54,201 nucleotides of DNA from Gracilibacteraceae bacterium (GCA_031266805.1 JAISAH010000008.1:1-54201); one strand, 5' to 3'; positions 6,723 through 28,264 are shown, counted from the stretch's first letter. A program made the numbers and translations. Notes: a model not told the origin generated them from the sequence alone.

Positions 6723-9700
6723 ATGAAAACTGACGAACAAAACGTGAACAGATCCCAGCCGGTCCCGCCGGGACCGCGCCGCTCCAAAGCGGAAAAAATG
6801 TTTTCCTTGGTATTGTCTATTTTGGTACTGATCGCCATGATCCCGGCCCCCCTCTACGCGGATGATCCGCCCCCTGTGCGAACGACGAAGACGGCGGAGC
6901 GGGTCGGGGAAAACCTGTGGAAAGTGACATTGAATTTGGAAGGCGATATGACGACAGTCAAACAGCCGCTGGATGTTATGCTGGTGCTGGATATATCCGG
7001 TTCTATGACCACCAATCGCATGACCGCCATGAGGACTGCCGCAGAGAACTTCGTTACTCAACTGGTGGGTTATAAAAACAGCGGTGCCTTAGATGACGTG
7101 CGCGTCGGCGTTGTGAAATTTGAAAGCACTGCCAGTTATGTTCCGGCAGGTACGGGAATAACACCCATTGATTCAGCGCACATGACAACAATAGATGCGA
7201 TGTTAAATGGTATTAAAACTTTGAGCAGTGGCGGTGGAACTCGTATTGATAGGGCCATTGAATTGGCAGACGATCAATTGCCACAAAGCAACCGTTCCCG
7301 ATATATTGTGCTGATGAGTGACGGTGAGCCGACCCCAGGCTATGATGACGAAGCAGAGACGGCCGCTACAAATTATAAAAATACTGGCGGCCATCTGATT
7401 ACTGTTGGATTGGATTTAGCGGATAATTCTGCGGGCGCGAAATTCCTCAACAAAATTCATAATGCCGGCTATTACAATGCCAATTCCAGCGGCAGCAACC
7501 TCACTCAGGTTTTTACCAATGTACTCACAAATATCATAGAAAACACCCCTGTCATCGCGAACGCTATTGTGACCGACCCCCTCGGCCCTGCTTTCAAATA
7601 TGTGGATAGAAACGGCAACAATGCGATTGACGCTGGGGATATCAGAACTTTCAACCCTGACGATCCCGCGAAATATGCCGGCGTAGCGTCGCTGCAAAAC
7701 AGCAACCGGCAGATAAAGTGGGAATTTACCGAAAAAATCGCGAAAGCGACGATGGAATATTATGTAGAGTTGATCGACCGGAACAACCCTGCTTACCATA
7801 ATGTACTCCTGCCCACCAACGGCAATACGACTGTGGAATACACCTTGATAGATAATACCGAAGGGGATCAGACGTTCCCTGAACCGGTGGCCTCTTATGG
7901 CATGGGACATCTGACCGTCGCCTACGGCAACAATGTGACCGGCGCTCCGGGGCCGCAAACTTACGGAGCGGAAAGCGACTGGAACACAAATACCAGATTT
8001 ACTTTTAACGCGCCGGCGGCAATCCCCGGATATGAACTGGCCTCCATAAGCCTGAACGGCACGGAAGTGCAGATCGCTTCGGGCGGCGGTCTGACCAGCA
8101 TAACCTGGACTGACGAAGATATCACGACGGCAGTTGTGACGCCGGACAGCGACCTGACGGACCGTTTCGCCCCCGCCGCTGACGGATCGGGACTGATCTC
8201 CATGCCCGTGCCGGCCGGCGACCTCGTTATCACTTATAATTACGTTTCGGTCATCTTTGACATCACCGAACAATACAGAGACGCGGCTGGCGCCGTGCTG
8301 TTGTCCGATACGACCGTGAAGGTCAACAAAAATTCGGATCACAATTTTACAGTCCCGGACGATATCACGGGCTATGTGCCCGTCGGCTATCAGATCGACA
8401 ACGGGCAGCAGCAGATTGAAACTACCGGATTTCCCAAGGATATCAAGAACACGATATCCAACGTGACGACCAACCACACCGTTACCTTCATATACGCGGA
8501 AGATAAAAACGGCGACAATATCCCCGATCCCGGCCAGAGTTTCACCATAACCGAGCATTATGACCTGTGGGATGAGAACAATAACCCTATTATAGGCGAT
8601 ATTCAGTCCCAAACGACGACTGTCGTGCCGACTGGTAATGGCGGTTCTTTTGACTACAAAAAAGACGCGCAGCCTATCACCGGCTATGTGGCTGTAGGTT
8701 ATCAAGCTGAGGATGTAGTTGAAGATGTATATCCGAAGCCGGTAACTATCACCATAGGCCAGGTGAAAACCAGCCAGCATGTGTATTTCTACTATAAATA
8801 TGATAAGAACAACAACGGCGTCCCTGACGACGACGAGAGCGAAAAATTCGCGATCAGCGAGACTTATGTCAGCGAAGACGGAACGGCGCTGAAAGCCGCG
8901 ACGACGACGGATCTGCCCTATGCGGACGGTTCTTTTGACTACAGTAAAGACGCGGAAGATATAACAGATTATGTAGCCATCGCTTACCAGGTGGATGGTG
9001 AGCCGCCGGTTCCGCTGAATACTTTCCCCGGCGCAGTCACGGCGAAGATACCTGAAGTCAAAGCCGCTCACGCCGTGAAGTTCACCTATAAGAACGACAA
9101 GAACAACAACGGCGTTCCGGACGAAGACGATCCCGACTTTTATGAGGTGTCGGCCTCTCTGGTCGGCCCGAACGGTCAGGCGTTTGCCGCTCCGGTGGAT
9201 AAAAATGGAAATCCACTGGATAATCCGCAGCGGTATACCGCCGATAAGAGCAACAGCTTCGCCGTTAACGAGCCGGCTCCGGGTGTACTAGACTATGTGG
9301 CGGTGAGCTACCAGTTTGACGGAAATGAAAACCTGGTCAAAGCCAATCAAGACTCCGTGACTGGTGTTTATGAGCAGCTAATCATCGTCCACGGACCCAT
9401 CGCGGCCGACCGGGCGGTGAAAGTCAATTATAAGGACGACAAGAACAACAACGGCGTCCCGGACGACGACAGCAAAGAAACATTCACGATTAGCGAGACT
9501 TATGTCAGCGAGGGCAATGCGGTGCTGAAAACCGCGACGACGACGAGTCTGCCCTACGCGGACGGTTCTTTTGACTACAGAAAAGACGCGCCGAATGATA
9601 TAACGGATTATGTAGCCGTCGCTTACCAGGTGGATGGTGGGCAGCCGGTTTCCCTTAGCGCTTTCCCTGGCACGGTCACGGCGGCGATAGACGGAGTCAA

Positions 9701-12700
9701 GGCCGCTCATACCGTGAAGTTCATCTATAAGAACGATAAGAACGATAACGGCGTCCCGGACGAAGAAGATCCCGGCTACACGGTGACGGCGACTTATGTC
9801 GACGAGGCCGGCCAAAATCTGACTTTGCCGAATAACGCGCCGAACCCGGAGACATTCCAAGCGGGCGATAACAGCACCGGGTTCAGCTTCAGCGAACCGG
9901 CGCCCGAACCTCCCGGTTATGTGGCGGTGAGCTATCAGTTTGACGACGGGAACCTGATTCCCAACATTCCGGATTCGGACGGCGTCTACGGGCAGCTGAC
10001 CATTGAGCACGGCCCCATCGCGGCTGACCGGACAGTGACGGTCAATTACGAAAAAGATCAAAACAACAACGGCAAGCCGGACGACAAGGAAAGCGATTAC
10101 ACGGTGACTGCGTACCTGATGGACGGAGCGCTGTCGGCGAACGGCGGCACAGCTATCGTGGATCCCAAGGCCCCCAATGGCGATCCGGTCCCGAATCCGA
10201 CCGCTTATCCCGCCCTCCAAAGCGCTAATTTCAATCTGTCGGAGCCGGCGCCGGTGATAGCGGACTATGTAGCTGTAGGCTATAAGATCGAAGACGGGAC
10301 CTTTATTCCCGGCGTGAAAAATCAAGTCACCGGGGCCTATCTGTCTCTGCAGATAGCGTACGACCATGTGCCCTCTAATTTGACGGCGGAAATAGTTTAT
10401 CTGACCGACAAGAACAATAACGGCATACCCGATGAAGGCGAAGCTGACTACAAAGTGACCGCGGATTATGTTGACGCGGCCGGCCTGACTCTGGCGGATA
10501 TCGGGGATAACGATACGGAATTCATCGTCACGAGCGCCATGGGCTTCGGTTTCAGCTACGAATTGAAGCCGGTGCCGAACTATGTGGCGGTGAGTTATCA
10601 GTTTGACGGAATCGGAGAACCTCTGATCGAGGCTGAGAAAGACGCGGCCGGCGCCTACCAGCCGCTGACCATTGAGCATGATCCGATTTCCGCTCCCCGG
10701 ACGGTGACGGTCAATTACAAGGACGACAAGAACAATAACGGCGTCCCGGACGACGGCGAAAAAGACTACAATATCCAGGCGAGTTATATTAACATCGACG
10801 CGGATGACCCCGGCGATAGTTACCTGAAATTACCAAACGACGCGCCGAACCCCCAGGATTTCCCTGTCAAGAGCGCCACAGGGTTCAGCTTCAGCGAACC
10901 GGCGTTGGATATACCTGATTATGTGGCGGTGAGCTATCAGTTTGTCGGAGACGGTGAACTTTTGATCGAAGCCACGAAGAACAACGAGGGTGTCTATAAC
11001 CAACTGATGATCGAGCATGACCCGATTTCCGCTAATAAGGAAGTAACGGTCAACTACAAGGAAGATAAGAACAACAACGGCAAGCCGGACGACGGCGACG
11101 GCGGCGTCGCGGAAGCGTACCTGATCACCGTAAATTATCAGGATAATGACGGCGATCCCCTCATTGACCCCGTTACCGGTCTGAACAAGCACGAAGAAGA
11201 TCTGCCCGGCGATGGTGGTTCCTTCGACTACACGGCTGAAGCGCCGCCGATAGAGGACTATGTGGCGGTCAGCTACACAGTGGATCCGGGAACCCCAGAG
11301 GCAAAAACCGGTGAAGGCGAGAGCTACGATTTTGAAGATGTGAAGATCGATCACACGATCATTTTCCACTACAAGGACGATAAGAACAACAACGGCGAAC
11401 CGGATGACGAGGAAGCCGGCTACGAAGTGAACGTGGCTTATCTTGACGAGGGCGGCCAAGCTCTGCCGGATATTGGCCATAATCTGGCGAAATTCCCCGT
11501 CACCAACATCACTGGGTTTAGTGTCAGCTACCCGCTGTGGCCGATAGTGGACTATGTGGCGGTGAGTTATCTGTTTGACGCTCCTGGGGAACAGGTGATT
11601 CCAGCCGAGCAGGACGACGAGACCGGCGCCTACAAACCGCTGATCATCGAACACGGCCCCATCTCGGCCGACATGAAAGTGACGGTCAATTACAAGGACG
11701 ACAAAAACAATAACGGCGTCCCGGACGACGACGACAGTGAAAAATTCACAGTCAGCGAGACCTATGTCAGCGGCGGCGCAGTGATACACGACCCGACAGC
11801 GACGGAGATGCCTGACGCGGACGGTTCATTCAACTACAGTAAAGACGCGGAAGATATACCGGATTATGTGGCTGTCGCTTATCAGGTCGACGATGAACCT
11901 CAGGTCGAACTGACTGCTTTCCCTAGCGCGGTCACAGCGAAGATAGATGAAGTCAAGGATCCTCATAACGTGAAATTCATCTACAAGGACGATAAGAACA
12001 ACAACGGCGTCCCGGACGACGACGACAGTGAAAAATTCACAGTCAGCGAGACCTATGTCAGCGAGGGCGACGCGACGCTGAAAGCCCCGACGGAGACGTA
12101 TATGCCCAATCCGGACGGTTCTTTCGACTACAGTAAAGACGCGGAAGATATACCTGATTATGTGGCCGTCGCTTATCAGATCGACGATGAGCCTCAGGTC
12201 GAACTGACTGCTTTCCCCGGCACGGTCACGGCGAAGATAGATGAAGTCAAGGGGCCGCACAACGTGAAATTCATCTATAAGGATGACAAGAACAACAACG
12301 GCGAACCGGACGACGGCGGCGGCAACGGCGGCAGCGCGGAAGCGTACAAGATCACCGTGATCTATCAGGACAAGAATGACGCAGCTCCTGTCGGCGCTCC
12401 GGCGACGCATATCGAAGATCTGCCTGGCGACGACGGCTTCTTTGACTACACGGCCACGGCCGTCCCGATAAAGGACTATGTGCCGGTCAGCTACACGGTG
12501 GATCCGGGGACTTCGGATGAGGAAACCGGCGACGGCGCGAGCTACAAGTTTGATGATGTGAAGATCGACCACACAATCATTTTCCACTACGCGGACGATA
12601 AGAACAACAACGGCACGCCGGACGACGAGGAAAAAGCCGGCTACACCATCACCGTGAATTATCTGGCCGCGGACAATAACAACGCCCCCCTTAACGACCC

Positions 12701-15143
12701 CGCTACCGGACAGCCGCCTCTCCCGGTGAAACTGCCTGGCGCGGACGGCTCCTTCGACTACACGGCCGCGGCGCCGCTGATAACAGACTATGTGGCGGTC
12801 AGCTACACGCTGGACGACGGGACGACGACGCTCGGCACGAGTTACGACTTCGACGATGTGACGGAAGATCACACCATCAGTTTCAACTATAAGGACGACA
12901 AGAACAACAACGGCGAGCCGGACGACGGCGACGACGGCAGTGGCAGCGGCGGCAGCGCGGAAAAGTACGAGATCGGCATGAGTTACCTGAACCAGAACGG
13001 TGATCCCATCGCGCTGGCGGACACGCATGATCTGCCGGAAGCGGACGGTTCCTTCGACTACACGGCCGAGGCGCTGCCGATAACAAATTATGTGGCGGTC
13101 AGCTACACGGTGGATCAGGGAATGCCGGGTGAAATAACTGACAGCGGCGTGAGTTATTTCTTCGACGACGTGAAAATCGATCACGCGATCATTTTCCACT
13201 ACGAGATCGATAATAACAACAACGGCGTCCCGGACGAGAACGAAGGCGACTACGTGATCAGCGCGGTCTATGTGGACGAGGGCGGCAATGAGCTTGACAG
13301 CCCGGCCCAGTTCACGGTGAAGGCCGACGACGGCTACAATTTCTCGCATTACGCGCCGACAGTCCCAGGTTATCTGGCGGCGGGCTTCCAATTCGACGGC
13401 TATGACTACGTCGGGGCGGGAACTATCAGTGGTACCGAGATTTTGGTCCAGCCGCTGACCGTTTTCCTGGACAGCGTCACGGCCAGTCTCGGCGTGACCG
13501 TCACCTATACGAAGGACGCGAACAACAACGGCGTCCCGGACACGGAGGAGAGCTACACTCTGACAGTGGAGCCCGTGGATGGCGGCGGCGACCCGATTGC
13601 CGGCCCGCAGACCGTGCCGGTGACGGGGGCGAACGATTTTGAGGTGGATATCCCCGCCCCGCCGCTGGATAACTATGTGCCGACCGGCTATCAGTTCGAG
13701 GGAGAAACGCCGGTGGAAGGCCAGAAGAACGGCGACGGCAGTTATCAGGAGCTGCATGTGACGCACGGCCCGCTGGACGCGGATACGACGGTGAAAGTTT
13801 TCTACGCGCCGGACTATAACGGCAATAATATCCCGGATATGCAAGAAGGCGACTACACGATCACGGAGACTTATATCTCCGACACCGGGACGGAGCTGGC
13901 CTCTCCGACGGCGGCTACGGCGAACAGTGGCAACGGTTACTATTACAGCCGGACGGTGAAGGACAATATCGCGGACTATATCGCCATCGGCTATCAGGTG
14001 GACAATCAGGCGGCGGTGATCTACACGAGCGGCTTCCCGCGGGATGTGCAGGTGCAGCTGACAAAAATTTCCTCCGACCGGAACGTCGCCTTCATCTACG
14101 CCCGCGACGTTGACGACAATGATATACCGGACAGTTTGCAGGCCGGCGAGTTCGGTTATACGATCCATTACTACAAAGAGTCTGTGGAAGCGGGCAATCT
14201 GCTGCTGGAGACCGTCGTGACCGACGTCAGTCTGGAGGACGTGATCCAACTGACGAAGGCGCAGCTGAACGCGGCCTGGCCGGCTTACGGCTACTATATG
14301 GGCGTGCAGCAGGGAGCGCCGGTGGTGATCATGAGCGGCGCGAACAATATCGACGTGGTTTACCAGCGCATTCTGATCACTGACCCGCGCCTGACGATCA
14401 CCCATTCCTACTATCGCTCCTCGGTCAACGCCCTTAATCTGGAAGGAACGCGGGACACGGACACTTTCACCGACCCGCTCGGCTACGGCCAGCAGGAGAT
14501 CAACTCTCTGCTCAAATATTCGCACGACGGCCGCAACTATTCGGCGAAATGGCCGGTCACGGTGGAAATGTACCCCATCATCTATATCGTGGAGGACGAC
14601 ACGCAGATCGGCGGCAGCGGTATATTTGAAAACGAAAACGAGTACGACGAGTACGACGTATACGGCGTGGAGGATGACGCCTATGCCGCAGATGCCTACA
14701 CGGTCGCCGACGATGTGGACGCCTATGAAGTCCTGATCGACAAGGACAAGGATTCGCCTCATGTCGTGACGCTGACGCTGAATTCCGGCGATACCCTGAA
14801 TGTTGACTATGGCTATATTTACCAAATCTCCGCTGATTACACGCGGCCCATCGTTCCGAACGGCGGCAGCGGCGGAGGTGGCGGCGGCGGCGGGACCGGC
14901 GGCGGAGGCGGGACCACGACCGTGCCGGATACCGACGTGCCGCTGGCGGTGATCCCAGAGGAAGTGCCGCCGCTCGCGCTCCCGCCTGAGGAAGATGAAG
15001 ACGATCTCACCAATATCGACGATGAAGATACCCCGCTCGTCCCGAATCCCAAGACGGGCGGCGACGTGACCAGCGCTTCCGGCGCGGCCTCTCTGATGGC
15101 CCTGCTGGGTGGGATCCTGATGAACAGACTGCGCAGGAAATAA
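6723..15143 (+). CDS. Giant surface protein: vWA domain, ~19 calcium-loop-linked repeats, NPKTG sorting signal
   Basis: The 2806-residue product has a signal peptide (hydrophobic core about residues 27-46, 'PLYADDP' cleavage region). A von Willebrand A domain follows, with MIDAS motif DISGS at 90-94 and 'RYIVLMSDGEPTPG'. About 19 modules of 85-100 residues come next, each with a beta-rich core ('DYVAVSYQFDG', 'DYVAVAYQVDG', 'DGSFDY') and joined by DxNNNGxPDD loops that look like calcium-binding EF-hand/thrombospondin-3 loops. The C-terminus has a poly-Gly spacer, a Pro/Glu/Asp-rich stretch, then NPKTG, a hydrophobic segment ('AASLMALLGGILM') and RLRRK. This is a sortase-type anchor with a non-LPxTG motif. 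It probably acts as a calcium-stiffened adhesin stalk with a vWA tip. AAGGAAGG precedes the ATG. No sortase gene is in the window. Confidence 0.9.
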   Translation: MKTDEQNVNRSQPVPPGPRRSKAEKMFSLVLSILVLIAMIPAPLYADDPPPVRTTKTAERVGENLWKVTLNLEGDMTTVKQPLDVMLVLDISGSMTTNRMTAMRTAAENFVTQLVGYKNSGALDDVRVGVVKFESTASYVPAGTGITPIDSAHMTTIDAMLNGIKTLSSGGGTRIDRAIELADDQLPQSNRSRYIVLMSDGEPTPGYDDEAETAATNYKNTGGHLITVGLDLADNSAGAKFLNKIHNAGYYNANSSGSNLTQVFTNVLTNIIENTPVIANAIVTDPLGPAFKYVDRNGNNAIDAGDIRTFNPDDPAKYAGVASLQNSNRQIKWEFTEKIAKATMEYYVELIDRNNPAYHNVLLPTNGNTTVEYTLIDNTEGDQTFPEPVASYGMGHLTVAYGNNVTGAPGPQTYGAESDWNTNTRFTFNAPAAIPGYELASISLNGTEVQIASGGGLTSITWTDEDITTAVVTPDSDLTDRFAPAADGSGLISMPVPAGDLVITYNYVSVIFDITEQYRDAAGAVLLSDTTVKVNKNSDHNFTVPDDITGYVPVGYQIDNGQQQIETTGFPKDIKNTISNVTTNHTVTFIYAEDKNGDNIPDPGQSFTITEHYDLWDENNNPIIGDIQSQTTTVVPTGNGGSFDYKKDAQPITGYVAVGYQAEDVVEDVYPKPVTITIGQVKTSQHVYFYYKYDKNNNGVPDDDESEKFAISETYVSEDGTALKAATTTDLPYADGSFDYSKDAEDITDYVAIAYQVDGEPPVPLNTFPGAVTAKIPEVKAAHAVKFTYKNDKNNNGVPDEDDPDFYEVSASLVGPNGQAFAAPVDKNGNPLDNPQRYTADKSNSFAVNEPAPGVLDYVAVSYQFDGNENLVKANQDSVTGVYEQLIIVHGPIAADRAVKVNYKDDKNNNGVPDDDSKETFTISETYVSEGNAVLKTATTTSLPYADGSFDYRKDAPNDITDYVAVAYQVDGGQPVSLSAFPGTVTAAIDGVKAAHTVKFIYKNDKNDNGVPDEEDPGYTVTATYVDEAGQNLTLPNNAPNPETFQAGDNSTGFSFSEPAPEPPGYVAVSYQFDDGNLIPNIPDSDGVYGQLTIEHGPIAADRTVTVNYEKDQNNNGKPDDKESDYTVTAYLMDGALSANGGTAIVDPKAPNGDPVPNPTAYPALQSANFNLSEPAPVIADYVAVGYKIEDGTFIPGVKNQVTGAYLSLQIAYDHVPSNLTAEIVYLTDKNNNGIPDEGEADYKVTADYVDAAGLTLADIGDNDTEFIVTSAMGFGFSYELKPVPNYVAVSYQFDGIGEPLIEAEKDAAGAYQPLTIEHDPISAPRTVTVNYKDDKNNNGVPDDGEKDYNIQASYINIDADDPGDSYLKLPNDAPNPQDFPVKSATGFSFSEPALDIPDYVAVSYQFVGDGELLIEATKNNEGVYNQLMIEHDPISANKEVTVNYKEDKNNNGKPDDGDGGVAEAYLITVNYQDNDGDPLIDPVTGLNKHEEDLPGDGGSFDYTAEAPPIEDYVAVSYTVDPGTPEAKTGEGESYDFEDVKIDHTIIFHYKDDKNNNGEPDDEEAGYEVNVAYLDEGGQALPDIGHNLAKFPVTNITGFSVSYPLWPIVDYVAVSYLFDAPGEQVIPAEQDDETGAYKPLIIEHGPISADMKVTVNYKDDKNNNGVPDDDDSEKFTVSETYVSGGAVIHDPTATEMPDADGSFNYSKDAEDIPDYVAVAYQVDDEPQVELTAFPSAVTAKIDEVKDPHNVKFIYKDDKNNNGVPDDDDSEKFTVSETYVSEGDATLKAPTETYMPNPDGSFDYSKDAEDIPDYVAVAYQIDDEPQVELTAFPGTVTAKIDEVKGPHNVKFIYKDDKNNNGEPDDGGGNGGSAEAYKITVIYQDKNDAAPVGAPATHIEDLPGDDGFFDYTATAVPIKDYVPVSYTVDPGTSDEETGDGASYKFDDVKIDHTIIFHYADDKNNNGTPDDEEKAGYTITVNYLAADNNNAPLNDPATGQPPLPVKLPGADGSFDYTAAAPLITDYVAVSYTLDDGTTTLGTSYDFDDVTEDHTISFNYKDDKNNNGEPDDGDDGSGSGGSAEKYEIGMSYLNQNGDPIALADTHDLPEADGSFDYTAEALPITNYVAVSYTVDQGMPGEITDSGVSYFFDDVKIDHAIIFHYEIDNNNNGVPDENEGDYVISAVYVDEGGNELDSPAQFTVKADDGYNFSHYAPTVPGYLAAGFQFDGYDYVGAGTISGTEILVQPLTVFLDSVTASLGVTVTYTKDANNNGVPDTEESYTLTVEPVDGGGDPIAGPQTVPVTGANDFEVDIPAPPLDNYVPTGYQFEGETPVEGQKNGDGSYQELHVTHGPLDADTTVKVFYAPDYNGNNIPDMQEGDYTITETYISDTGTELASPTAATANSGNGYYYSRTVKDNIADYIAIGYQVDNQAAVIYTSGFPRDVQVQLTKISSDRNVAFIYARDVDDNDIPDSLQAGEFGYTIHYYKESVEAGNLLLETVVTDVSLEDVIQLTKAQLNAAWPAYGYYMGVQQGAPVVIMSGANNIDVVYQRILITDPRLTITHSYYRSSVNALNLEGTRDTDTFTDPLGYGQQEINSLLKYSHDGRNYSAKWPVTVEMYPIIYIVEDDTQIGGSGIFENENEYDEYDVYGVEDDAYAADAYTVADDVDAYEVLIDKDKDSPHVVTLTLNSGDTLNVDYGYIYQISADYTRPIVPNGGSGGGGGGGGTGGGGGTTTVPDTDVPLAVIPEEVPPLALPPEEDEDDLTNIDDEDTPLVPNPKTGGDVTSASGAASLMALLGGILMNRLRRK
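8256..14140 (+). repeat. Tandem protein-coding repeat array inside the surface gene
   Basis: About 19 repeats of 255-300 bases, each ending in a gayaaraayaayaacggc-type stretch that encodes DxNNNG. Most are diverged. The units beginning near 11694 and 11988 (period about 294 bases) share an almost unbroken run through 'GVPDDDDSEKFTVSETYVS', indicating a recent duplication. Unit types alternate ('SETYVS' type, 'VNYQDN' type, 'ASYVD' type), so the array grew by copying blocks as well as single units. Confidence 0.85.
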
Positions 15144-16190: not shown

Positions 16191-16200
16191 GGTATTTTTG

Positions 16201-16225
16201 GATTCCGGGACAAGCCCGGAATGAC
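16201..16225. repeat. REP-like palindrome (copy 3)
   Basis: GATTCCGGG/CCCGGAAT around ACAAG, followed by GACGGCGG. It sits upstream of the hydrolase lipoprotein gene. Confidence 0.75.
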
Positions 16226-16267
16226 GGCGGAGGGGATTGCCCCGGTTACCCAAAACTCCTCCACCCC

Positions 16268-18069: not shown

Positions 18070-18932
<863 letters not shown>

Positions 18933-18940
<8 letters not shown>

Positions 18941-19898
18941 TCAGATAACCCTCCAGTATTTCTTCGATTGCCAATCCCACACGGGGATCCGACAGTTCAT
19001 CAACGGGGACGGACAAAACAGCCGAAAGCGGGTCGATGGCCGCGGCATCTGCAAAATCCAGGCTGTATCGCATGACTTGGATCACTTGCGCCGGGGTTTC
19101 ATCCTTCGGAACGGTCCCGTATTGATCCAAAGCCGCCGTTTTTGCCTGCTCTTTCGTGACGGCGCAAACCGGGCAGGCGCCGTCCGCCAGCATGGAGTAA
19201 TGGCTGACCGCGGACAGACCGCCCTGCTTCATGCCGTCCACAAAAATGCGTTCCTTTAACCGGTATTGCTTGCCGATGGGACTGCGCAGCAGGGGATATG
19301 TCAAATCCCAGAGTCCTCGAGGCGAGCCGGCCCATGCAAAGTTTCTGGTCTTGCTCGGCTTCGCTATGAGCTGCGGCCAAAGCGCCTGCAACTCGTCAAA
19401 GCAGCGCGTCGCGGTCATTTTAGATACGCCAAGTTCGGCAGCCGCCCCGGTCAGCGTCATGTTTTCCCAGCGCCTGTACATCGCGAGCAGCAGCAGCTTC
19501 TGCGCGGTGTACGAGATTTTGTCCACGGCGGGAATCTCTCTGATATCCCCTGCTTTCAGCGCGACGCCAAGAAAGGGCATGTAGATCTGCCGCCCCGCGA
19601 TGATAAAGGGCAGTCCCTCGTCAAGCATTTTTTCCTTGGTATAGGCGCCCGCGGATCTCAGGCACAGCACACAGTCCATCCCCGTTAGTTTTTTGAGTTG
19701 AATACACTGTTTGCGCGCGGCAGTCAGGTTTTGCGCTTCTTTCGGCTCGGCCAGCAGACATTCGCAGCCCGATAGCTTTAAGATATGCAACGCGTAGCCT
19801 TTCCGCAAATAGAGCGGCAGGTTTTCGGTATTCGTGAATTCCGCCGTTTCCGCTTTTAAGTGCAGCGTATCTTCAATATATGTTACGAACTCAGTCAT
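18933..19898 (-). CDS. abiEi: AbiEi-like antitoxin / transcriptional repressor
   Basis: The 321-residue product has a winged-helix segment in the middle ('MTLTGAAAELGVSKMTATRCFDELQAL') and a C-terminal region ('RGLWDLTYPLLRSPIGKQY') like COG4861/AbiEi antitoxins. It precedes and overlaps the AbiEii gene, the standard AbiE order. AbiEi proteins repress their own promoter by binding inverted repeats. A 13-bp inverted repeat covering the promoter lies 24 bases upstream (19922-19956), which matches. ATG at 19898 is chosen for the GGAGT site 7 bases before it; the longer in-frame start would overlap the operator. Cys pairs in the first half ('SGCECLL', 'GMDCVLCL', 'ACPVCAV') are noteworthy and could bind metal. 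Confidence 0.75.
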
Positions 19899-19921
19899 AG
19901 GAACACTCCGTAATATATTTT

Positions 19922-19956
19922 TTTGCATTGTAACATAGTTTGCGTTACAATGCAAA
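19922..19956 (-). promoter_or_regulatory. AbiE operator with embedded promoter
   Basis: TTTGCATTGTAAC and GTTACAATGCAAA are perfect 13-base arms around a 9-base spacer. On the minus strand the left arm holds a -35 (TTGCAT, 19955-19950) and the right arm a -10 (TACAAT, 19932-19927), spaced by 17 bases. Repressor binding to both arms would cover the whole promoter. Autoregulation by AbiEi is the obvious reading. Confidence 0.8.
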
Positions 19957-20174: not shown

Positions 20175-20212
20175 CCGGTGATTTTTGCGGCTTGGCATGG
20201 TATAATCACCGG
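20175..20212 (+). promoter_or_regulatory. Extended -10 promoter inside an inverted repeat, upstream of the LuxR-type gene
   Basis: CCGGTGATT (20175-20183) and AATCACCGG (20204-20212) are perfect 9-base arms 20 bases apart. A TGG-TATAAT extended -10 (TATAAT 20201-20206) lies at the right arm. No good -35 exists, so transcription may need an activator. The geometry suggests a regulator binding site, possibly for the LuxR-type protein itself. Confidence 0.5.
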
Positions 20213-20279
20213 TAAGAAGGATTCGCGCCCGACCCGTTGGCTGACCGCATATGTAATGTAATAAAGGTGAGGGTGACAC

Positions 20280-22754
20280 ATGGCAAGACCGAAAAAACAC
20301 AATGCCGACAAGTTTTATTTCTCCGAACGCCTGTCCGAGAAGCTGGATGGGCTGCTTTGGGCGAAAACGACGCTGATATGCGCCCCTGCGGGCTACGGCA
20401 AGACAACGGCCGCGCGGGAGCATCTGAACAAGCGCCTGCCAAAAACCGCCGCGCTCCGGTGGCTCACCTGCGTTGAAGAACCGGCAGCCGCCGCGTGGAG
20501 ACGATTTTGCGACGTCATTCAAACTATCGACGCGGAGGCCGGGAGAGGGCTTCTCGCGATAGGACTGCCCGACGATGACACGAAGGGCGATGTCGCAACG
20601 CTGATCATGGAAATGGAGTGCCGAGGCGAAACATGGCTTGTCATCGACGATTTTCATTCCGTCAAAGACGCCGTGCCGGGTACGGTGTGGGATGTGCTGA
20701 TGGAGCATGGCGCAAAAAATCTGCACACCGTTATTCTGACCAAGGCGGCCGTGGAAATGCGCATGACGCAAAAGCCCGGCGTACTGTATCTGAAACGGGA
20801 CGATATGCGGCTGACCGAGGACGAAATCGGTGAATATTTCGAGCAGGCGGGCGTCGCGCTCACGCCGGCGCAAATCCGAGAGGCGAACCGCCATACCGAG
20901 GGCTGGATCACCGCCCTGAATCTGCAAAGGAAAAGCTATTTGGACACCGGCGCTTTTCTGGACACCGGCGACATTCACGAAATGATGCGGGAAATCGTGT
21001 GGAACAGGCTCACGGAGAACGAGCAATCGTTTCTGCTGCGCGTTTCGCCTTTTGACAGCTACACGCTCGTACAGGCGGCCTATATGATGGACGCTGATAA
21101 ACTGCCGGAGTACGCCAAAGCTCTGAACGAAAAGAACGATTTTATCCGGCGCGACCCGTGGGGCTTGGTATTCAGGCCGCACAGCACATTGCTTCATTTC
21201 ACGCGCGGCGTGCTTGACACGATTTCCGTAGGCGAGCGCGCAGAGATTCTCACCCGCGCCGGCGACTGGTGCGCGGGGAACAAACAGCCGGAGCAGGCCA
21301 TGTATTTCTATCACCGCTTGGGCGATTACAAGAAAATCCTGGCGCTGGACGTTTTGGGCATAGAATTTGAGCGGGCGGACGGCGCGGACTACGCCGACAT
21401 GCTGCTTGATATATTGGAGAACACAACGCCGGGGGAAAAGCTCGCCCGTTCCGTAAGCGTGATAAAAATCATCTTCATGCTATTCGGCGCGGGACGCTAT
21501 GAGCAATTCGGACGTTGGTGCGGAGAGTTGACCGCGATTGTAGCCGAAAGCGATCTGCCGGAAACGGAAAAGAACCGTCTGGCCGGCGAGCTTGCCTTGC
21601 TGACTTCCTTTACGAAATTCAACAATATCGCGGAAATGGGAGGCCTTATACGCCGCGCCGACGAGCTGCTTTGCGGCAAGCCGTCGCTTATCAGCATGAA
21701 CGACGCCTGGACATTCGGCAGCCCCTCGGTTCTGTTCCTGTACCACTCGGAAGCGGGTCGCCTTGACGGGGAGCTTGCCGACATGGATGAGAACGCCGCT
21801 CATTACTTCTCCCTGACGCGGGGCCACGGCAGCGGCGGCGACGTTTTGATGAAAGCGGAAGCGCTGTTCAACCGGGGTGAGATGAGTCTCGCCCCGATCT
21901 CGGCGTATAAGGCGCTGTATCGGGCGGAGAACAGGCGGCAAGAGTGCGTCTGCATCGGAGCCGCGCTGCTGCTTGGCAGACTGGCGCTTCGACGCGGAGA
22001 CAGCGACGAATTTGCCGACATTCTGGAACAGCGCATATTGCGGTACGCGGAGAAAAACCCGCTCAAATCAAACCGGATGGAGGCGGATCTGGCGACTTCC
22101 TGCCTTATGCAGCTTTTGGATCGCCCGCAGGACATGGCAGGGTGGCTCAGACACGGCGATCTTGGCGACAAGCGTCTGTACGACGTGACTTTGCCCTACG
22201 CGCAAATCCTGTACGGGAAATATCTGCTTGGGTCCGGCAGCCCGGACATCTGGCTCGGCATGGCGGGCGAGGCGATGGCGCTCGCCGAAAAGCTCCGTTG
22301 CGGGATGGCGGAGATTTACGGCGGGATACTCACCGCCGCCGCCTATCGTGCGCAGGACATGACGGGGAACGCCGCTGCCGCGCTGAAAGGAGCGCTTGAT
22401 CTCGCGCTCCCCGACCGGCTGTATATGCCTTTCGCGGAAAACCATTCCCTGCTCGGCATCTTGCTTGACGAGCATTGCCCGCAGGGCGCGCTGAAATGCA
22501 TCATTTCCCTCGCGGAGAAGCAGGAGGCGGGCAAGGCGGCGATTTTGCGCAAGCTCTACCCGTTGCTTCCGTTCGGTCTGACACAGCGGGAATATGATGT
22601 GGCGAAGCTGGCGGCGCGGAACCTCACAAGCCCGGAAATCGCGGAAAATCTATACATCTCACTCAATACGGTGAAAACGCATATCAAAAACATTTACCAA
22701 AAAACGCAGGCTTCGTCCCGGTCGGAACTGAATAAAATTTTCGAGAAAATCTAA
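20280..22754 (+). CDS. LuxR-family transcriptional regulator, MalT-like STAND ATPase
   Basis: The 824-residue product has the full MalT-like architecture. The N-terminal NTPase has Walker A 'CAPAGYGKTT' (34-43) and Walker B 'TWLVIDDFHS'. A winged-helix-like region ('LTENEQSFLLRVSPFDSY') follows, then a long helical, TPR-like sensor domain. The C-terminal LuxR-type helix-turn-helix reads 'LTQREYDVAKLAARNLTS' and 'IAENLYISLNTVKTHIKNIY'. Such proteins oligomerise on ATP and ligand binding to activate transcription. The ligand is unknown. The ATG follows GGTGAGGG. The promoter lies in an inverted repeat whose half-site recurs just after the gene. It is the first gene of a plus-strand signalling cluster and probably controls it. 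Confidence 0.88.
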   Translation: MARPKKHNADKFYFSERLSEKLDGLLWAKTTLICAPAGYGKTTAAREHLNKRLPKTAALRWLTCVEEPAAAAWRRFCDVIQTIDAEAGRGLLAIGLPDDDTKGDVATLIMEMECRGETWLVIDDFHSVKDAVPGTVWDVLMEHGAKNLHTVILTKAAVEMRMTQKPGVLYLKRDDMRLTEDEIGEYFEQAGVALTPAQIREANRHTEGWITALNLQRKSYLDTGAFLDTGDIHEMMREIVWNRLTENEQSFLLRVSPFDSYTLVQAAYMMDADKLPEYAKALNEKNDFIRRDPWGLVFRPHSTLLHFTRGVLDTISVGERAEILTRAGDWCAGNKQPEQAMYFYHRLGDYKKILALDVLGIEFERADGADYADMLLDILENTTPGEKLARSVSVIKIIFMLFGAGRYEQFGRWCGELTAIVAESDLPETEKNRLAGELALLTSFTKFNNIAEMGGLIRRADELLCGKPSLISMNDAWTFGSPSVLFLYHSEAGRLDGELADMDENAAHYFSLTRGHGSGGDVLMKAEALFNRGEMSLAPISAYKALYRAENRRQECVCIGAALLLGRLALRRGDSDEFADILEQRILRYAEKNPLKSNRMEADLATSCLMQLLDRPQDMAGWLRHGDLGDKRLYDVTLPYAQILYGKYLLGSGSPDIWLGMAGEAMALAEKLRCGMAEIYGGILTAAAYRAQDMTGNAAAALKGALDLALPDRLYMPFAENHSLLGILLDEHCPQGALKCIISLAEKQEAGKAAILRKLYPLLPFGLTQREYDVAKLAARNLTSPEIAENLYISLNTVKTHIKNIYQKTQASSRSELNKIFEKI

Positions 22755-22757
22755 AAA

Positions 22758-22776
22758 ATCACCCGAATCGGGTGAT
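22758..22776 (+). promoter_or_regulatory. Palindrome after the LuxR-type gene
   Basis: ATCACCCGA/TCGGGTGAT around a single A, immediately after the stop codon. There is no U tract on the plus strand, so it is not a classic terminator. Its ATCACC half-site equals the one in the promoter repeat at 20175-20212, so it could be an operator for the next gene. Confidence 0.4.
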
Positions 22777-22891
22777 GTGGGAAAAAAACTAATGCGTTAT
22801 GCTTATAGAATAGAAAGCATGGCGCATTTTTTTGTGCGCCGTGAAAGCAAAACCCCATATTTCAATTCAAAAGCAATGAGAGGTGGTTTTT

Positions 22892-23323
22892 ATGGTTTGG
22901 CCTGAAATGAAATCCGGCGCGCGCCTTCTGGAAGTCACGTCCGACGATGTAGGGGGAGAGGTTTTTATATGGGCGGTCATTGACGACAGAGAGATTCGCG
23001 GCATCGTATACGAGGGCATGTTTTACTGCCAGCTGCGCGCGGACGCGGCCGGGCTTACCGTTACGTCCGTGACCGAGATCGCGCCGATTGAGGCGAAGCG
23101 CTCCACGCGCCCGCAGATAATGAAGTTCGTTGAGGACTGCGACGCGGACGACGAGTTTCTTTGGGACACATACCGCAAGGGCTATCACCTGTTCGTCCAC
23201 CGGACGGCGGACGGCGGCGAGTACATCGTTATGGCGACGAAATGCGTTTGGGGAGAACCGCGCCCGTACAACGGGGGCCTTGCCGCTTCGGATAATCAAA
23301 TGAAAAGGAGGGACAGCAGGTGA
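22892..23323 (+). CDS. Unrecognised small protein of the signalling cluster
   Basis: The 143-residue product is soluble and acidic. I do not recognise it. It alternates beta-like stretches ('GARLLEVTSDDVGGEVFIWAV', 'EYIVMATKCVWGEP') with a helical middle ('RPQIMKFVEDCDADDEFLW'). The ATG at 22892 has AGAGGTGG before it. Its TGA overlaps the GTG start of the receiver/HD-GYP gene, so the two are coupled and may function together, for example as a sensor or binding partner of the response regulator. That is inference from position. Confidence 0.65.
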   Translation: MVWPEMKSGARLLEVTSDDVGGEVFIWAVIDDREIRGIVYEGMFYCQLRADAAGLTVTSVTEIAPIEAKRSTRPQIMKFVEDCDADDEFLWDTYRKGYHLFVHRTADGGEYIVMATKCVWGEPRPYNGGLAASDNQMKRRDSR

Positions 23324-24339
23324 AAACCATTTTTGTCGTTGACGACAGCGACACCAATCTCGCCACGGCGAAAGCGGCGCTGGAAGGTTCGTACAAGGTG
23401 TTCACCATACCGTCGGCGCAAAAAATGTTCAAGCTGGCCGAAAAAATAATTCCCGATTTGATACTGCTCGATGTGGACATGCCGGAAATGGATGGGTTCC
23501 AAGCCATGGAACTGCTGAAAGCGGACGCGAAGATGAGCCGGATTCCCGTGATGTTTCTGACCGCCCGGTCGGACGCGGCGGTTGAAGTGCGGGGATTTGA
23601 GCTTGGCGCCGTGGACTTTGTGACGAAGCCCTTTTCGGCTCCTGTCTTGTTGAAACATATCGAAATGCACATCGGCTTGGACGAGCTGATCAAAAAGCGC
23701 ACGGAACAGCTCATCCGGCAGCAGAACGGCATTATTTCCGTCATGGCGGACATCGTGGAAAGCCGCGACCAAATTACGGGCGGCCACATTGAACGGACGC
23801 AGAAATACCTTGAAATACTGCTGACCGCCATGCTCGGCACGGGACTGTACGCGGAAAAAATATCCGGCTGGGACATGAATATTGTAATTCCTTCCGCGCA
23901 GCTGCATGACATCGGCAAAATCTCCGTGCCGGATCATATCCTCAATAAACCGGGCAAGTTGGAAAAAGACGAATTCGAGGCAATCCGCGCTCACGCCGCC
24001 GAGGGCGCGCGGCTTGTTGACAAAATCGCCGGGAAAATCGGCGGCGGCGACTTTCTTGTTCACGCCAAGCTGTTCGCGGCGGCGCACCATGAAAAATGGA
24101 ACGGCACAGGCTACCCGAAAGGACTCTCGGGTGAAGAAATCCCCTTGCAGGGGCGCGTCATGGCAATCGCCGACGTATACGACGCGCTCATCAGCGAACG
24201 TCCCTATAAAAAACCGTTTTCCCACGAAGAAGCCGTCGAATTGATCAAAAATGACGCGGGAACGGCTTTCGATCCAAAAATCGTCGAGGTGTTTCTGAAC
24301 GTCGCCGACGAATTCTGGGTCGAGGTCATGATATACTAA
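23320..24339 (+). CDS. Response regulator with HD-GYP domain (c-di-GMP phosphodiesterase)
   Basis: The 339-residue product has an N-terminal receiver ('FVVDDSDTNLA', phosphoacceptor Asp51 in 'LLDVDMPEMDG', 'FVTKPFS' with the conserved Lys). A C-terminal HD-GYP domain follows with HD at 196-197 ('QLHDIGKISVPD'), 'AAAHHEKWNGTGYPKGL' containing HH 256-257 and GYP 264-266, and 'ADVYDALISERPYKKP'. HD-GYP enzymes hydrolyse c-di-GMP. All metal ligands and the GYP motif seem intact. The GTG start at 23320 is preceded by AAGGAGGG and overlaps the upstream stop. The likely phosphodonor is the hybrid kinase/Hpt encoded at 25628, two genes downstream. Confidence 0.92.
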   Translation: MKTIFVVDDSDTNLATAKAALEGSYKVFTIPSAQKMFKLAEKIIPDLILLDVDMPEMDGFQAMELLKADAKMSRIPVMFLTARSDAAVEVRGFELGAVDFVTKPFSAPVLLKHIEMHIGLDELIKKRTEQLIRQQNGIISVMADIVESRDQITGGHIERTQKYLEILLTAMLGTGLYAEKISGWDMNIVIPSAQLHDIGKISVPDHILNKPGKLEKDEFEAIRAHAAEGARLVDKIAGKIGGGDFLVHAKLFAAAHHEKWNGTGYPKGLSGEEIPLQGRVMAIADVYDALISERPYKKPFSHEEAVELIKNDAGTAFDPKIVEVFLNVADEFWVEVMIY

Positions 24340-24402
24340 CGAGCGTTTGAATTTTCCGCAAACACGAGTATCACTCAAAAAAATATTTTTGGAGGTAACG
24401 AA

Positions 24403-25644
24403 ATGGTTAAGGTTTACACGGCATTTACAAAGGAAATTGACAGCGCCGAGGACGCTGTCAATGAAATCCTTGGCTACGCCGCTCCGATTGTGGCGCTGAC
24501 GGCAAACGCGATAACGGGTAGCGACAAGATGTTTATGGATAGGTTGGCCAAACCGGAAAGCAATCCAAGACCTCTTGAAATCTTCGGTGAAAAAAGTCCA
24601 CGCTTGCGGCACAGCTTGAAAAAAACCGGCGAATTCATGCGCCATTATTTCGTCATAAACCCCAAATCCTTTGTTAAACTGGAGGATTTGAAGCATTTCC
24701 TTCTCAGCGTGGAAAATTGCTTTTCGGTTGGCAACCGCGCGGAATACAAAATCTACATATCCCGTTACCCCCGTGACGCTGTGGCCGCCGTACACAGATA
24801 CGCGGCAAGCGTTCGGGACTGTGAAACGGTGAGGATTTACGCCGTAGGGGGCGACGGAGTGCTTTTTGACTGCCTGAACGGCATGGCGGAGTTTGAGAAC
24901 GCGGAACTTGCGAGCATTCCTTACGGTAACGCGAATGATTTCATAAATGCGCTGGGCGCGGAGAATTTTGACGCTTTCAGGGACATCAAACGCCTTTCGG
25001 AAGCGCCGTCTGTGCCTGTGGATTTAATCCGGTGCGGCTCACGCTTCGCTCTGATCAATTGCAGCATCGGAGCGGAAAGCCGGGCGGTCATGAATATGAA
25101 CGGCATAATGAAAGCGATGAATAAAGGCAAAAATACACGCCGTTTTATACCGGCGATTTATAAAATCGGCGCTATAACCGGCATCATCAACGGTTCCATT
25201 TTGCCGAAGCGCTATATCGTGGAAATCGACGGCGCGGATAAATCCGGTGAATATATGAATATGAACATCGCGAACACAGCGTTCAACGGAGGCGGAAACA
25301 TTCCGAACCCTTACGCTGTGCCGGACGACGGGGAACTGGACGTTGTTTTTTTGAACCGCCTTTCCCGGTTTCGCACCATTTCGATTATGCCGGGATACAC
25401 GCGCGGACAGTTTGAAAAATATCCGCAAATATTCACGCACTTGCGCTTTCGAGAAATGTCATGCAGATGCGAAACGCCCATGAGCGTAATCATGGACGGC
25501 GAATTGTTCATGACATCCGAAATCACATTCAAAGTGCTGCCCGGAGCCGTGAAAATAGCCGTTCCCGAAGGTTTGGGCTTTGTAGATGCGACGGCAGGGG
25601 CCGGACGGAAAAAGAAGGAGGCGCGTCATGAATCGCAACGCTGA
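24403..25644 (+). CDS. Diacylglycerol/sphingosine-kinase-like (YegS-type) protein with chimeric N-terminus
   Basis: From residue 79 on, the 413-residue product matches the DAGK catalytic fold: 'MRHYFVINPKS', the nucleotide loop 'IYAVGGDGVLFDCLNG', 'ELASIPYGNANDFINALG', and 'MNIANTAFNGGGNIPNPYA'. Such enzymes phosphorylate diacylglycerol or similar lipids. The first 78 residues are a mosaic. 'MVKVYTAFTKEIDSAEDAVN' resembles the start of FIST-domain sensors. 'APIVALTANAITGSDKMFM' copies the receiver of the hybrid kinase encoded at 25628, and 'SNPRPLEIFG' copies its linker before Hpt. Translation likely starts at ATG 24403, behind GGAGGT. The internal ATG at 24637, where the kinase fold begins, has no clear ribosome site. 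This is a fusion by deletion. Confidence 0.8.
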   Translation: MVKVYTAFTKEIDSAEDAVNEILGYAAPIVALTANAITGSDKMFMDRLAKPESNPRPLEIFGEKSPRLRHSLKKTGEFMRHYFVINPKSFVKLEDLKHFLLSVENCFSVGNRAEYKIYISRYPRDAVAAVHRYAASVRDCETVRIYAVGGDGVLFDCLNGMAEFENAELASIPYGNANDFINALGAENFDAFRDIKRLSEAPSVPVDLIRCGSRFALINCSIGAESRAVMNMNGIMKAMNKGKNTRRFIPAIYKIGAITGIINGSILPKRYIVEIDGADKSGEYMNMNIANTAFNGGGNIPNPYAVPDDGELDVVFLNRLSRFRTISIMPGYTRGQFEKYPQIFTHLRFREMSCRCETPMSVIMDGELFMTSEITFKVLPGAVKIAVPEGLGFVDATAGAGRKKKEARHESQR

Positions 25645-28264
25645 AAGGATAACGAAAACCCGGAGTTTCGCCAATTTCGCCGGGCTATTCGGCATCATGC
25701 TGTATGGGGTTTTGCGCCTTTGCGAGTCGCTTCTCACCGGGCTTTATGCTGAACGCGGCGTTTTGGTGTTTTTGATGTGCTTGGGGTGCGGAGTCTGTGT
25801 GTGCCTGACGCAAATCATGCTGAAAAACCGCCGCTCGGTTCCTTTGGTGTCCGGCACGCTGATTTTGCTGTCCTTTATCGCCGGGGCTTACATCACGGCG
25901 GATTTTGAGTATTTCTATATCTCAATCCTGTGCATTGCCGGAATTGTGTGCCTGTATCAGGATTTCAAAATGGTCATGGCGTTTTTCCTCGAAAACATCG
26001 TCGTGAACATCGTTTTGTTCCTGAGCGTGTTCAGAGCGGGCGTGATAGCTGACTTCAAGATCATGAGCATTGACGCGCTCCTTTTTTTGTACGGTTTCTT
26101 TTTCCTCGCCGCGCTGTCTTGGCGTTCGACGAAAAAAGAAGGACAGGCGGAAAAAGGACTGAGCGCCTTCTCCTCGCTTTTGAAAACAACGCCGAATTAC
26201 ATGGTCATCGTCGATACGGAAAATCTGGTGCGGTATATTTCCGATCCATTGGCGAAATTCGCGGATATTGAGCCGGAACACACCGTCGGACGTCCGCTGC
26301 TCGATTTGTTTTCAGAGAAAAGCATGGAAATGATGTTCGCGGACATCCTTGACGCCGATGGATTTTGGACGGATACTCGAGAGATCGTCGTCGCCGGAGA
26401 AACCCATTATTTCAAAATACTCTCGGACAGGCTCGTGGGCGACACGGACGGCATGTTTATCGAGATAACGGACATTACGGAAACTGTCACGGCCAAGATG
26501 GACGCAGAAAACGCGAATCGCGCGAAATCGCGATTTTTGGCCACCATGTCCCATGAAATCCGCACGCCGATGAACGCGATTATCGGCGTCGCCGAGATTT
26601 GGCTCCAGCGCGGCGACATGCCCGCAGATTTGACAAAGGCAATAGATACAATCCGAAGCTCCGCTCACGGGCTTCTCGGAATCATCAACGATATACTCGA
26701 CCTGTCAAAAATAGAGACGAGGCAGTTCGAGATCCGCCCGGCGGAGTACGACGTGCCGAGCATGATAAACGACGCGGTGCAATTGAATATTTTCAGGATC
26801 GGGAGCAAACCCATAGAGTTTTTTCTTGATGTGGAAGAAAACGTGCCGGCGCGGTTGTTCGGCGACGAGCTTCGCATCAAGCAAATCCTCACCAACATTC
26901 TGTCCAACGCCTTCAAATACACCGAGAGCGGAAGCGTGACGCTTTCGGTGAAGTCAAACGAATCAAACGAAGCGGACGGCGGCGTGTCTTTGGTTTTTCG
27001 TGTGGCGGACACAGGACAGGGCATGAAGCCGGAGGATTTGGATCGGCTGTTCAGCGAATACGCGCGATTTAACGACGAAGCGAACCGCGCCACGGAAGGA
27101 ACCGGGCTTGGCATGAGCATAACCCGCAGCCTTGTGCGGATGATGGGCGGCGAAATTGATGTGGAAAGCGAATACGGCAAAGGCAGCGCGTTCACGGTGA
27201 CGCTGCCCCAAACACCGGTGGGCGGCGCGATCGTCGGCGCGGAACTGGCGCGAAGCATTCGCGATTTTGCGTTCATGCGCGACCGGCAGGGCGCGAACGC
27301 GCAGATCATCCGCGAGCCGATGCCTTACGGAAGCGTTTTGATCGTGGACGACGTGGACGTGAACCTCTACGTCGCGCACGGCCTGATGGCGGTTTACGGC
27401 CTGAAAATCGAAACGGCGTCCGGCGGTTTCGCGGCTCTGGACAAAATAAAAGACGGCGCTTCTTACGATGTGATTTTTATGGATCACATGATGCCCGAAA
27501 TGGACGGTGTGGAGACGACGCGAAAGCTCCGCGAGTTTGGCTACGGCGCCCCGATTGTGGCGCTGACGGCAAACGCGATAACGGGCAGCGACAAGATGTT
27601 TATGGAAAACGGGTTTGACGGCTTCATATCCAAACCCATTGACATCAGGCAGCTGAACGCCGCTTTGAACAAGTTCGTCCGCGACCGGCACAAAAGAGAA
27701 GCGGCGACAATTACCGCAATGCCGATTCAAGATGCGGCGGCCAAACCGGGAAGCGATCCGAGGCTTCTTGAAATCTTTAGAGGCGACGCCGCGAAAGCGG
27801 TTGTGACGCTGGGGGAAACGGCGCGGGACGGGAACCTCAAGCTGTTTACGACCGCCGCCCACGCGATGAAATCCGCATTGGCAAACATCGGGGAAGCGGA
27901 AAAATCCGCGTTGGCGGCCCGGCTGGAAAAGGCGGGCCGGGACGGTGACAGCGCCTTTATAGCGGCCAACGCCGAAAGTTTTGTCGCCATGCTTGAAGCA
28001 TTTGCGCTCAGTGCGGCGGATGAAGCGGATACGCCGGGCGATACGGACGCTTCGGCGGACGCGGCGCTTTTGGGTGAAGGGCTTCGGATTCTCAAGCAAG
28101 CCTGCGCGGAATACGACAGCGCGGCGGCGGACGCGGCGATTTCCACGCTGAAAGAATACGCCCGAAAGCCTGACACCCGCGCCGCGCTCCGCAGAATCTC
28201 CGAATGCCTTCTGCACAGCGATTTTGACGAGGCAATGGACGTGATAGACGCTTTGATAAACTGA
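25628..28264 (+). CDS. Hybrid sensor histidine kinase with receiver and Hpt domains
   Basis: The 878-residue product has about five N-terminal membrane segments (residues ~10-165), a PAS domain ('YMVIVDTENLVRYISDPLA'), HisKA with His309 in 'ATMSHEIRTPMN', HATPase ('NILSNAFKYTESG', 'DTGQGM', 'GTGLGMSI'), a receiver with Asp619 in 'FMDHMMPEMDG', and an Hpt domain with His745 in 'TAAHAMKSALANIG'. A second helical stretch near the end ('LRILKQACAEYDSAAADAA') may be an Hpt-like tail. It forms a complete four-step phosphorelay, and the HD-GYP regulator at 23320 is its natural terminal acceptor. ATG 25628 follows AAGGAGG and overlaps the upstream gene by 17 bases. It ends 20 bases from the convergent ligA stop. 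Confidence 0.93.
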   Translation: MNRNAERITKTRSFANFAGLFGIMLYGVLRLCESLLTGLYAERGVLVFLMCLGCGVCVCLTQIMLKNRRSVPLVSGTLILLSFIAGAYITADFEYFYISILCIAGIVCLYQDFKMVMAFFLENIVVNIVLFLSVFRAGVIADFKIMSIDALLFLYGFFFLAALSWRSTKKEGQAEKGLSAFSSLLKTTPNYMVIVDTENLVRYISDPLAKFADIEPEHTVGRPLLDLFSEKSMEMMFADILDADGFWTDTREIVVAGETHYFKILSDRLVGDTDGMFIEITDITETVTAKMDAENANRAKSRFLATMSHEIRTPMNAIIGVAEIWLQRGDMPADLTKAIDTIRSSAHGLLGIINDILDLSKIETRQFEIRPAEYDVPSMINDAVQLNIFRIGSKPIEFFLDVEENVPARLFGDELRIKQILTNILSNAFKYTESGSVTLSVKSNESNEADGGVSLVFRVADTGQGMKPEDLDRLFSEYARFNDEANRATEGTGLGMSITRSLVRMMGGEIDVESEYGKGSAFTVTLPQTPVGGAIVGAELARSIRDFAFMRDRQGANAQIIREPMPYGSVLIVDDVDVNLYVAHGLMAVYGLKIETASGGFAALDKIKDGASYDVIFMDHMMPEMDGVETTRKLREFGYGAPIVALTANAITGSDKMFMENGFDGFISKPIDIRQLNAALNKFVRDRHKREAATITAMPIQDAAAKPGSDPRLLEIFRGDAAKAVVTLGETARDGNLKLFTTAAHAMKSALANIGEAEKSALAARLEKAGRDGDSAFIAANAESFVAMLEAFALSAADEADTPGDTDASADAALLGEGLRILKQACAEYDSAAADAAISTLKEYARKPDTRAALRRISECLLHSDFDEAMDVIDALIN

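Follow-up and report, generated by a model that had tools for sequence, protein, structure and literature searches.

Within a 54,201-nt window of DNA from a Gracilibacteraceae bacterium (GCA_031266805.1 JAISAH010000008.1:1-54201; "the window" refers to this whole stretch throughout), the gene cluster at 20175-28264 contains a genuine conserved signalling module of three genes, encoding a response regulator with receiver (REC) and HD-GYP domains, a DAGK-like lipid kinase and a membrane hybrid histidine kinase. The lipid kinase and hybrid kinase genes form the tight core of this module. An earlier note on this DNA had described five plus-strand genes as one self-contained sensory cassette. A family-model scan of the window recovered all five open reading frames with the domains described, and the proposed cassette holds for the HD-GYP, DAGK and hybrid kinase genes, but not for the preceding genes for a STAND/LuxR regulator and a small protein. 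The co-occurrence test set by the earlier note found the five genes together in no other genome among those searched, while the three-gene set recurs in a second genome (G282). The module was recognized by observed gene structure, catalytic motifs, a conserved gene overlap, recurrence and purifying selection. It comprises the following elements, together with a scar between its first two genes:

23320-24339, plus strand: REC-HD-GYP response regulator, 339 residues, HD_5/HD domain behind the receiver; predicted output of the module
24340-24636, plus strand: scar composed of a FIST gene start, a receiver piece and a receiver/Hpt linker piece; not present in L163, the matching locus of G282
24637-25644, plus strand: DAGK/YegS-like lipid kinase with NPxSF, GGDG and LFDCLNG motifs; true start ATG 24637
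25628-28264, plus strand: membrane hybrid histidine kinase, 878 residues, with about six transmembrane helices and PAS, HisKA, HATPase, REC and putative Hpt domains

Conservation of the three-gene module

Recurrence of the module was found by searching the phylum for relatives of the lipid kinase. On contig C124 of G282, a genome from another family, the HD-GYP, DAGK and hybrid kinase genes occur in the same order as in the window (L163), with amino acid identities of 88, 85 and 85%, respectively, and 85–87% identity at the DNA level (87% for the HD-GYP gene). This DNA homology extends from position 23322 of the window, at the HD-GYP start codon, to 28233, near the end of the kinase gene, and because it is confined to this segment, the small protein and the STAND regulator were placed outside the module. 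Beyond these limits, the window and L163 have only a 27-nt repeat in common. Ratios of non-synonymous to synonymous substitution rates (dN/dS) of 0.12 for the HD-GYP gene, 0.17 for the DAGK gene and 0.18 for the kinase gene indicate purifying selection on all three. Two paralogous loci in G282, on contigs C66 and C255, are ordered DAGK-kinase-HD-GYP, and one of them carries an extra hybrid kinase gene whose stop overlaps the DAGK start. At the position of the HD-GYP start in L163 (~10616, minus strand), the codon is ACG, not GTG, and the first in-frame ATG would trim the start of the receiver.

A clade of lipid kinases coupled to hybrid kinases

The lipid kinase exceeded the Pfam cut-offs for DAGK_cat (46 bits, cut-off 23.6) and YegS_C (67.8 bits, cut-off 27), and its profile matched DgkB (2qv7, 2.9e-18) with the conserved motifs kept. 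The NCBIfam model TIGR00147 gave 89.9 bits, below its cut-off of 118.65 bits, although for a reading frame that still included the scar. Judged by these profiles, the protein is related to the YegS/DgkB family but atypical for the TIGR00147 subfamily. GGDG, an aspartate aligned to the TKVD position of DgkB and DGE are retained in the window protein and in nearly all of its relatives.

Seven of these lipid kinases, from five genomes in two families (one each in the window, G465, G004 and G003 and three in G282), form one group with 100/100 support and share the NPxSF loop, which offers a simple sequence handle for finding further members. All seven directly precede a hybrid kinase gene with a frame overlap of 4–17 nt, taking the ATG or GTG nearest to the conserved kinase start; in the window, the overlap between the kinase start and the end of the lipid kinase gene is 17 nt. 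By comparison, hybrid kinases are missing from the flanks of about 1.5 kb at all 47 ordinary DAGK-family loci, a few contigs being short (Fisher p 5.6e-9, with loci treated as independent though they are only partly so). Both sets of loci were taken from among the matches listed in the same searches. With this control, chance adjacency of DAGK and kinase can be ruled out. An HD-GYP gene adjoins the pair at four of the seven loci. No member of the clade was found in viral contigs.

The window DAGK groups with the copies of the other family rather than with the ones from its own genus, which suggests from the tree that the module moved horizontally between families. Alternatively, the grouping may reflect a binning error in one metagenome assembly. 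At L164 (1720-3927), the DAGK continues into a sensor region and a HisKA-like segment that has lost its histidine (MSSEIHGP), with a proline-rich linker. By its sequence, this fusion is a second, separate joining of kinase remains to this type of DAGK. This joining to a sensor connects the lipid kinase with sensory input.

Predicted phosphorelay and the role of the lipid kinase

The hybrid kinase carries the phospho-acceptors His309 (HisKA), Asp619 (REC) and His745 (putative Hpt). HisKA, HATPase_c and REC scored above their cut-offs and contain the phospho-acceptor residues. The Hpt domain of the window kinase reached 19.4 bits, under the Pfam cut-off of 24.6, with the motif AHAMKSALANIG at 744, and its relatives exceed the cut-off. 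The transmembrane region gave a low-confidence, all-helical structure model. The kinase gene called in the earlier note exists, although its most likely start is 25628 instead of 25586.

In the response regulator, the receiver has its phospho-acceptor Asp51, and the catalytic E..H, HD, HH and GxGYP motifs are intact (ESRDQITGGH at 147, HDIGK at 196, HHEKWNGTGYP at 256), so that membership in the REC-HD-GYP group was confirmed. By its motifs, the protein is predicted to be a phosphodiesterase that degrades cyclic di-GMP (c-di-GMP). Its closest relatives in other genomes, from several families, mostly adjoin hybrid kinases, which makes it likely that the kinase feeds the HD-GYP regulator. DAGK-less HD-GYP relatives beside hybrid kinases occur on contig C149 of the same genome and in G002, G004, G041, G074, G078 and G037. 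Motifs and gene neighbourhood together argue with good confidence for an output path from the kinase via Hpt to Asp51 in a regulator that is an active phosphodiesterase for c-di-GMP.

The best explanation for the whole module, which we regard as moderately probable from the sequences, is a three-gene phosphorelay with the lipid kinase as a coupled input. The hybrid kinase would autophosphorylate on His309, and the phosphate would move via Asp619 to His745 in the Hpt domain, from which it would be handed to Asp51 of the HD-GYP regulator and thereby alter c-di-GMP hydrolysis. Coupled to the sensor kinase in translation, the lipid kinase would phosphorylate a membrane lipid and most likely set or reset a membrane cue that is read by the transmembrane/PAS input of the kinase. 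The direction in which phosphate is transferred, the substrate of the lipid kinase and its action on the sensor input are inferred. In the same conditional sense, the DAGK presumably is an active lipid kinase that modifies a membrane signal. More tentatively, the module may represent a class of phosphorelays in which a dedicated, co-translated lipid kinase sets a lipid cue for the membrane hybrid kinase and so joins membrane lipid phosphorylation directly to c-di-GMP turnover. If the lipid kinase indeed acts on the sensor, it would provide two-component signalling in bacteria with an enzyme as input and would link the state of membrane lipids directly to c-di-GMP.

Several observations weigh against this explanation or restrict it. 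The kinases at L193 and L076 are without Hpt, and a four-step relay is therefore not universal in the clade. The DAGK-kinase pair of G465 (L193) has no adjoining HD-GYP gene, and contig ends hide this part of L076 and L077. A kinase on contig C52 of the window's own genome has a related sensor region, but no DAGK adjoins it. Finally, the G004 DAGK has GGNG in place of GGDG, so that not every member of the clade is sure to be catalytic.

The last point also speaks for a different role, in which the DAGK-like protein is non-catalytic and serves as a lipid- or nucleotide-binding accessory subunit, a co-sensor as NosP is for NosK. The conserved frame overlap suggests a fixed stoichiometry of the two proteins, NPxSF replaces the NPxAG-type loop of most ordinary relatives, and at L164 the DAGK is joined to a sensor whose HisKA is decayed. 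On the other hand, the near-universal retention of GGDG, the TKVD-position aspartate and DGE, as well as the purifying selection on the DAGK gene, argue for a functional enzyme, and we consider a purely accessory role rather unlikely. Still less probable is that the lipid kinase forms a parallel output beside c-di-GMP hydrolysis without acting on the sensor. Its co-location with HD-GYP genes at four of seven loci would fit such an arrangement, but it lacks a receiver domain by which phosphate could regulate it, and its tight partner is the kinase, present at seven of seven loci, and not the HD-GYP regulator.

A putative remnant of a FIST/hybrid kinase pair

In the window, HD-GYP and DAGK genes are separated by the scar, whereas in L163 the gap is short and a ribosome-binding site lies ahead of the DAGK ATG. 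The scar contains a ribosome-binding site and 23 codons from the start of a FIST gene (24403-24471), followed by 70 nt (24470-24539) with 96% identity (67/70) to the hybrid kinase receiver at 27537-27606 and by 39 nt (24546-24584) with 87% identity to the receiver/Hpt linker at 27739-27777; the 132 nt that lie between these two pieces in the kinase gene are missing. The first 23 residues (MVKVYTAFTKEIDSAEDAVNEIL) are identical at 13 of 23 positions to a FIST protein of the same genome and to one in G022, and the match to the FIST start scored 54, against 24 for the next best of 231,304 background 23-mers. The FIST gene on contig C88 is the sole own-genome match among the matches listed. At L015, L171, L172 and L146, a hybrid kinase gene lies downstream of the FIST gene.

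By these similarities, the scar is the remains of a FIST/hybrid kinase pair. Such a pair may have been ancestral at the window locus, or it may have been inserted and later lost. The receiver piece resembles the window kinase (67/70) more than that of L163 (61/70), and it therefore arose or was converted in the window lineage. An assembly chimera is unlikely as the origin of the scar, because neither kinase-derived piece is an exact copy of the kinase sequence (67/70 and 87% identity) and the FIST start is not the same as that of the only FIST gene of the genome.

The scar is in frame with the lipid kinase and would add 78 residues to its N-terminus. The earlier note was right about the existence of the DAGK gene and misplaced its start at 24403; this start is ruled out because the DNA homology to L163, in which a ribosome-binding site immediately precedes the ATG, sets in again at 24636. 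Automatic annotation would similarly provide the lipid kinase with an N-terminus of fossil pieces, and the scar may serve as a warning in this respect. The module has been rearranged in the window strain, where the remains of the FIST/hybrid kinase pair are now joined to the lipid kinase and supply its ribosome-binding site. More generally, the scar shows that accessory sensors in HD-GYP relays can be lost and swapped.

Relation to known systems

In Burkholderia, nosR, nosP and nosK encode, in this order, a REC-HD-GYP protein, a FIST nitric oxide sensor and a histidine kinase (PMC12570481). The module resembles this system in encoding a histidine kinase together with a REC-HD-GYP regulator and an accessory protein, and the scar preserves the gene order of HD-GYP, FIST start and kinase piece. 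A complete FIST (NosP) gene was not found in the window operon, where about 23 codons are left. Unlike in the nos system, the living accessory protein in the window is lipid kinase-like instead of a FIST hemoprotein, and the kinase, a membrane hybrid, carries REC and Hpt domains of its own. The NCBIfam model NosR (NF053512) was the top match of the HD-GYP regulator, at 135.8 bits below its cut-off of 400 bits.

With YegS, DgkB and BmrU (2bon, 2qv7 and 3t5p among the structures compared), the lipid kinase shares DAGK_cat and YegS_C domains, GGDG and the conserved Asp and DGE positions. However, the window clade is separate from these proteins, has the NPxSF loop and is always coupled to hybrid kinases, whereas ordinary relatives, even in the same genomes, are not. 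Two-gene systems of a hybrid kinase and a REC-HD-GYP regulator are common in related genomes and show the same adjacency, but without a lipid kinase. In the literature searched, mostly outside subscription journals, we did not find a DAGK joined to HD-GYP and histidine kinase genes. The parts are known; what these papers do not describe is a clade of lipid kinases coupled to hybrid kinases with HD-GYP output.

Genes outside the module

Further features of the cluster and its upstream side are:

18185-19955, minus strand: two-gene unit named AbiE in the earlier note; no family model match (Pfam, NCBIfam, PADLOC)
20280-22754, plus strand: STAND/LuxR (MalT-like) regulator, 824 residues, GerE match at 1.1e-12
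22791-22835, plus strand: intrinsic terminator between the STAND and small-protein genes, with a 14-bp stem, a U tract, -17.5 kcal/mol and z -3.95
22892-23323, plus strand: small protein of 143 residues, uncharacterised family; outside the conserved core

No gene starts at 20175, where the cluster had been taken to begin; the first gene, encoding the STAND regulator, opens at 20280. Matches of this regulator to MalT-like ATPase/TPR models stayed under the family cut-offs. The gene is probably a transcription unit of its own, since it is followed by a strong terminator. A sub-threshold Rfam match to a small RNA over this terminator was judged to be due to chance, and no riboswitch was detected upstream of the genes, tRNAs alone reaching the Rfam gathering threshold.

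That all five genes form one cassette, including the STAND regulator and the small protein, is highly improbable. As described in the earlier note, the small-protein gene is coupled to the HD-GYP gene, whose GTG start overlaps its stop by 4 nt (GTGA), its relatives adjoin pairs of hybrid kinase and response regulator, and contig C149 provides a weak echo with two STAND genes by a kinase-HD-GYP pair. Against this, both genes are absent at L163, whose homology to the window ends at the HD-GYP start, the terminator separates the STAND gene, the small-protein family was not found in other genomes of the host's own family, and relatives of the STAND regulator are only 23–32% identical and located at other sites, with several copies in many genomes. 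On C149 (L079), the two STAND/LuxR genes stand in tandem and point away from the genes for a dCache hybrid kinase and an HD-GYP regulator; this regulator is the closest own-genome paralogue of that in the window.

The small protein matched no Pfam, NCBIfam or PADLOC model, no PDB relative and no plasmid sequence. Its AlphaFold model is beta-rich and fairly confident (pLDDT 83.5), with no match to PDB or viral structures at E <= 0.001. Family members are present in Desulfosporosinus, Anaerovorax, a Lachnoclostridium assembly and an uncultured Firmicute. L010, from a Bacteroidetes assembly, matched over 40 residues and was not accepted as a member. At the loci found, the relatives always lie behind a hybrid kinase and a REC-LuxR regulator. 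The one kinase checked has a MASE7-like sensor and Hpt. At L005-L009, a gene for a large secreted protein follows, which is missing at L083; these secreted proteins vary by locus (NHL/CWB2, SLH/LRR, SLH/Big and TIG/cadherin-like types). From this arrangement, the kinase/REC-LuxR/small-protein block appears to be a portable unit that regulates surface proteins.

The AbiE identity proposed for the two-gene unit and its joint transfer with the cluster as a block at ligA were not borne out: none of the compared loci carries a relative of the two genes, and the flanks of L163 are unrelated. Farther upstream, an open reading frame of 2806 codons (6723-15143) with von Willebrand A and GBS104-like pilin Ig domains encodes a giant surface adhesin-like protein. 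A repeat at 16194-16231 is shared over 27–38 nt, with 95–100% identity, with L163 and L164, both from another family, and resembles REP-like palindromes.

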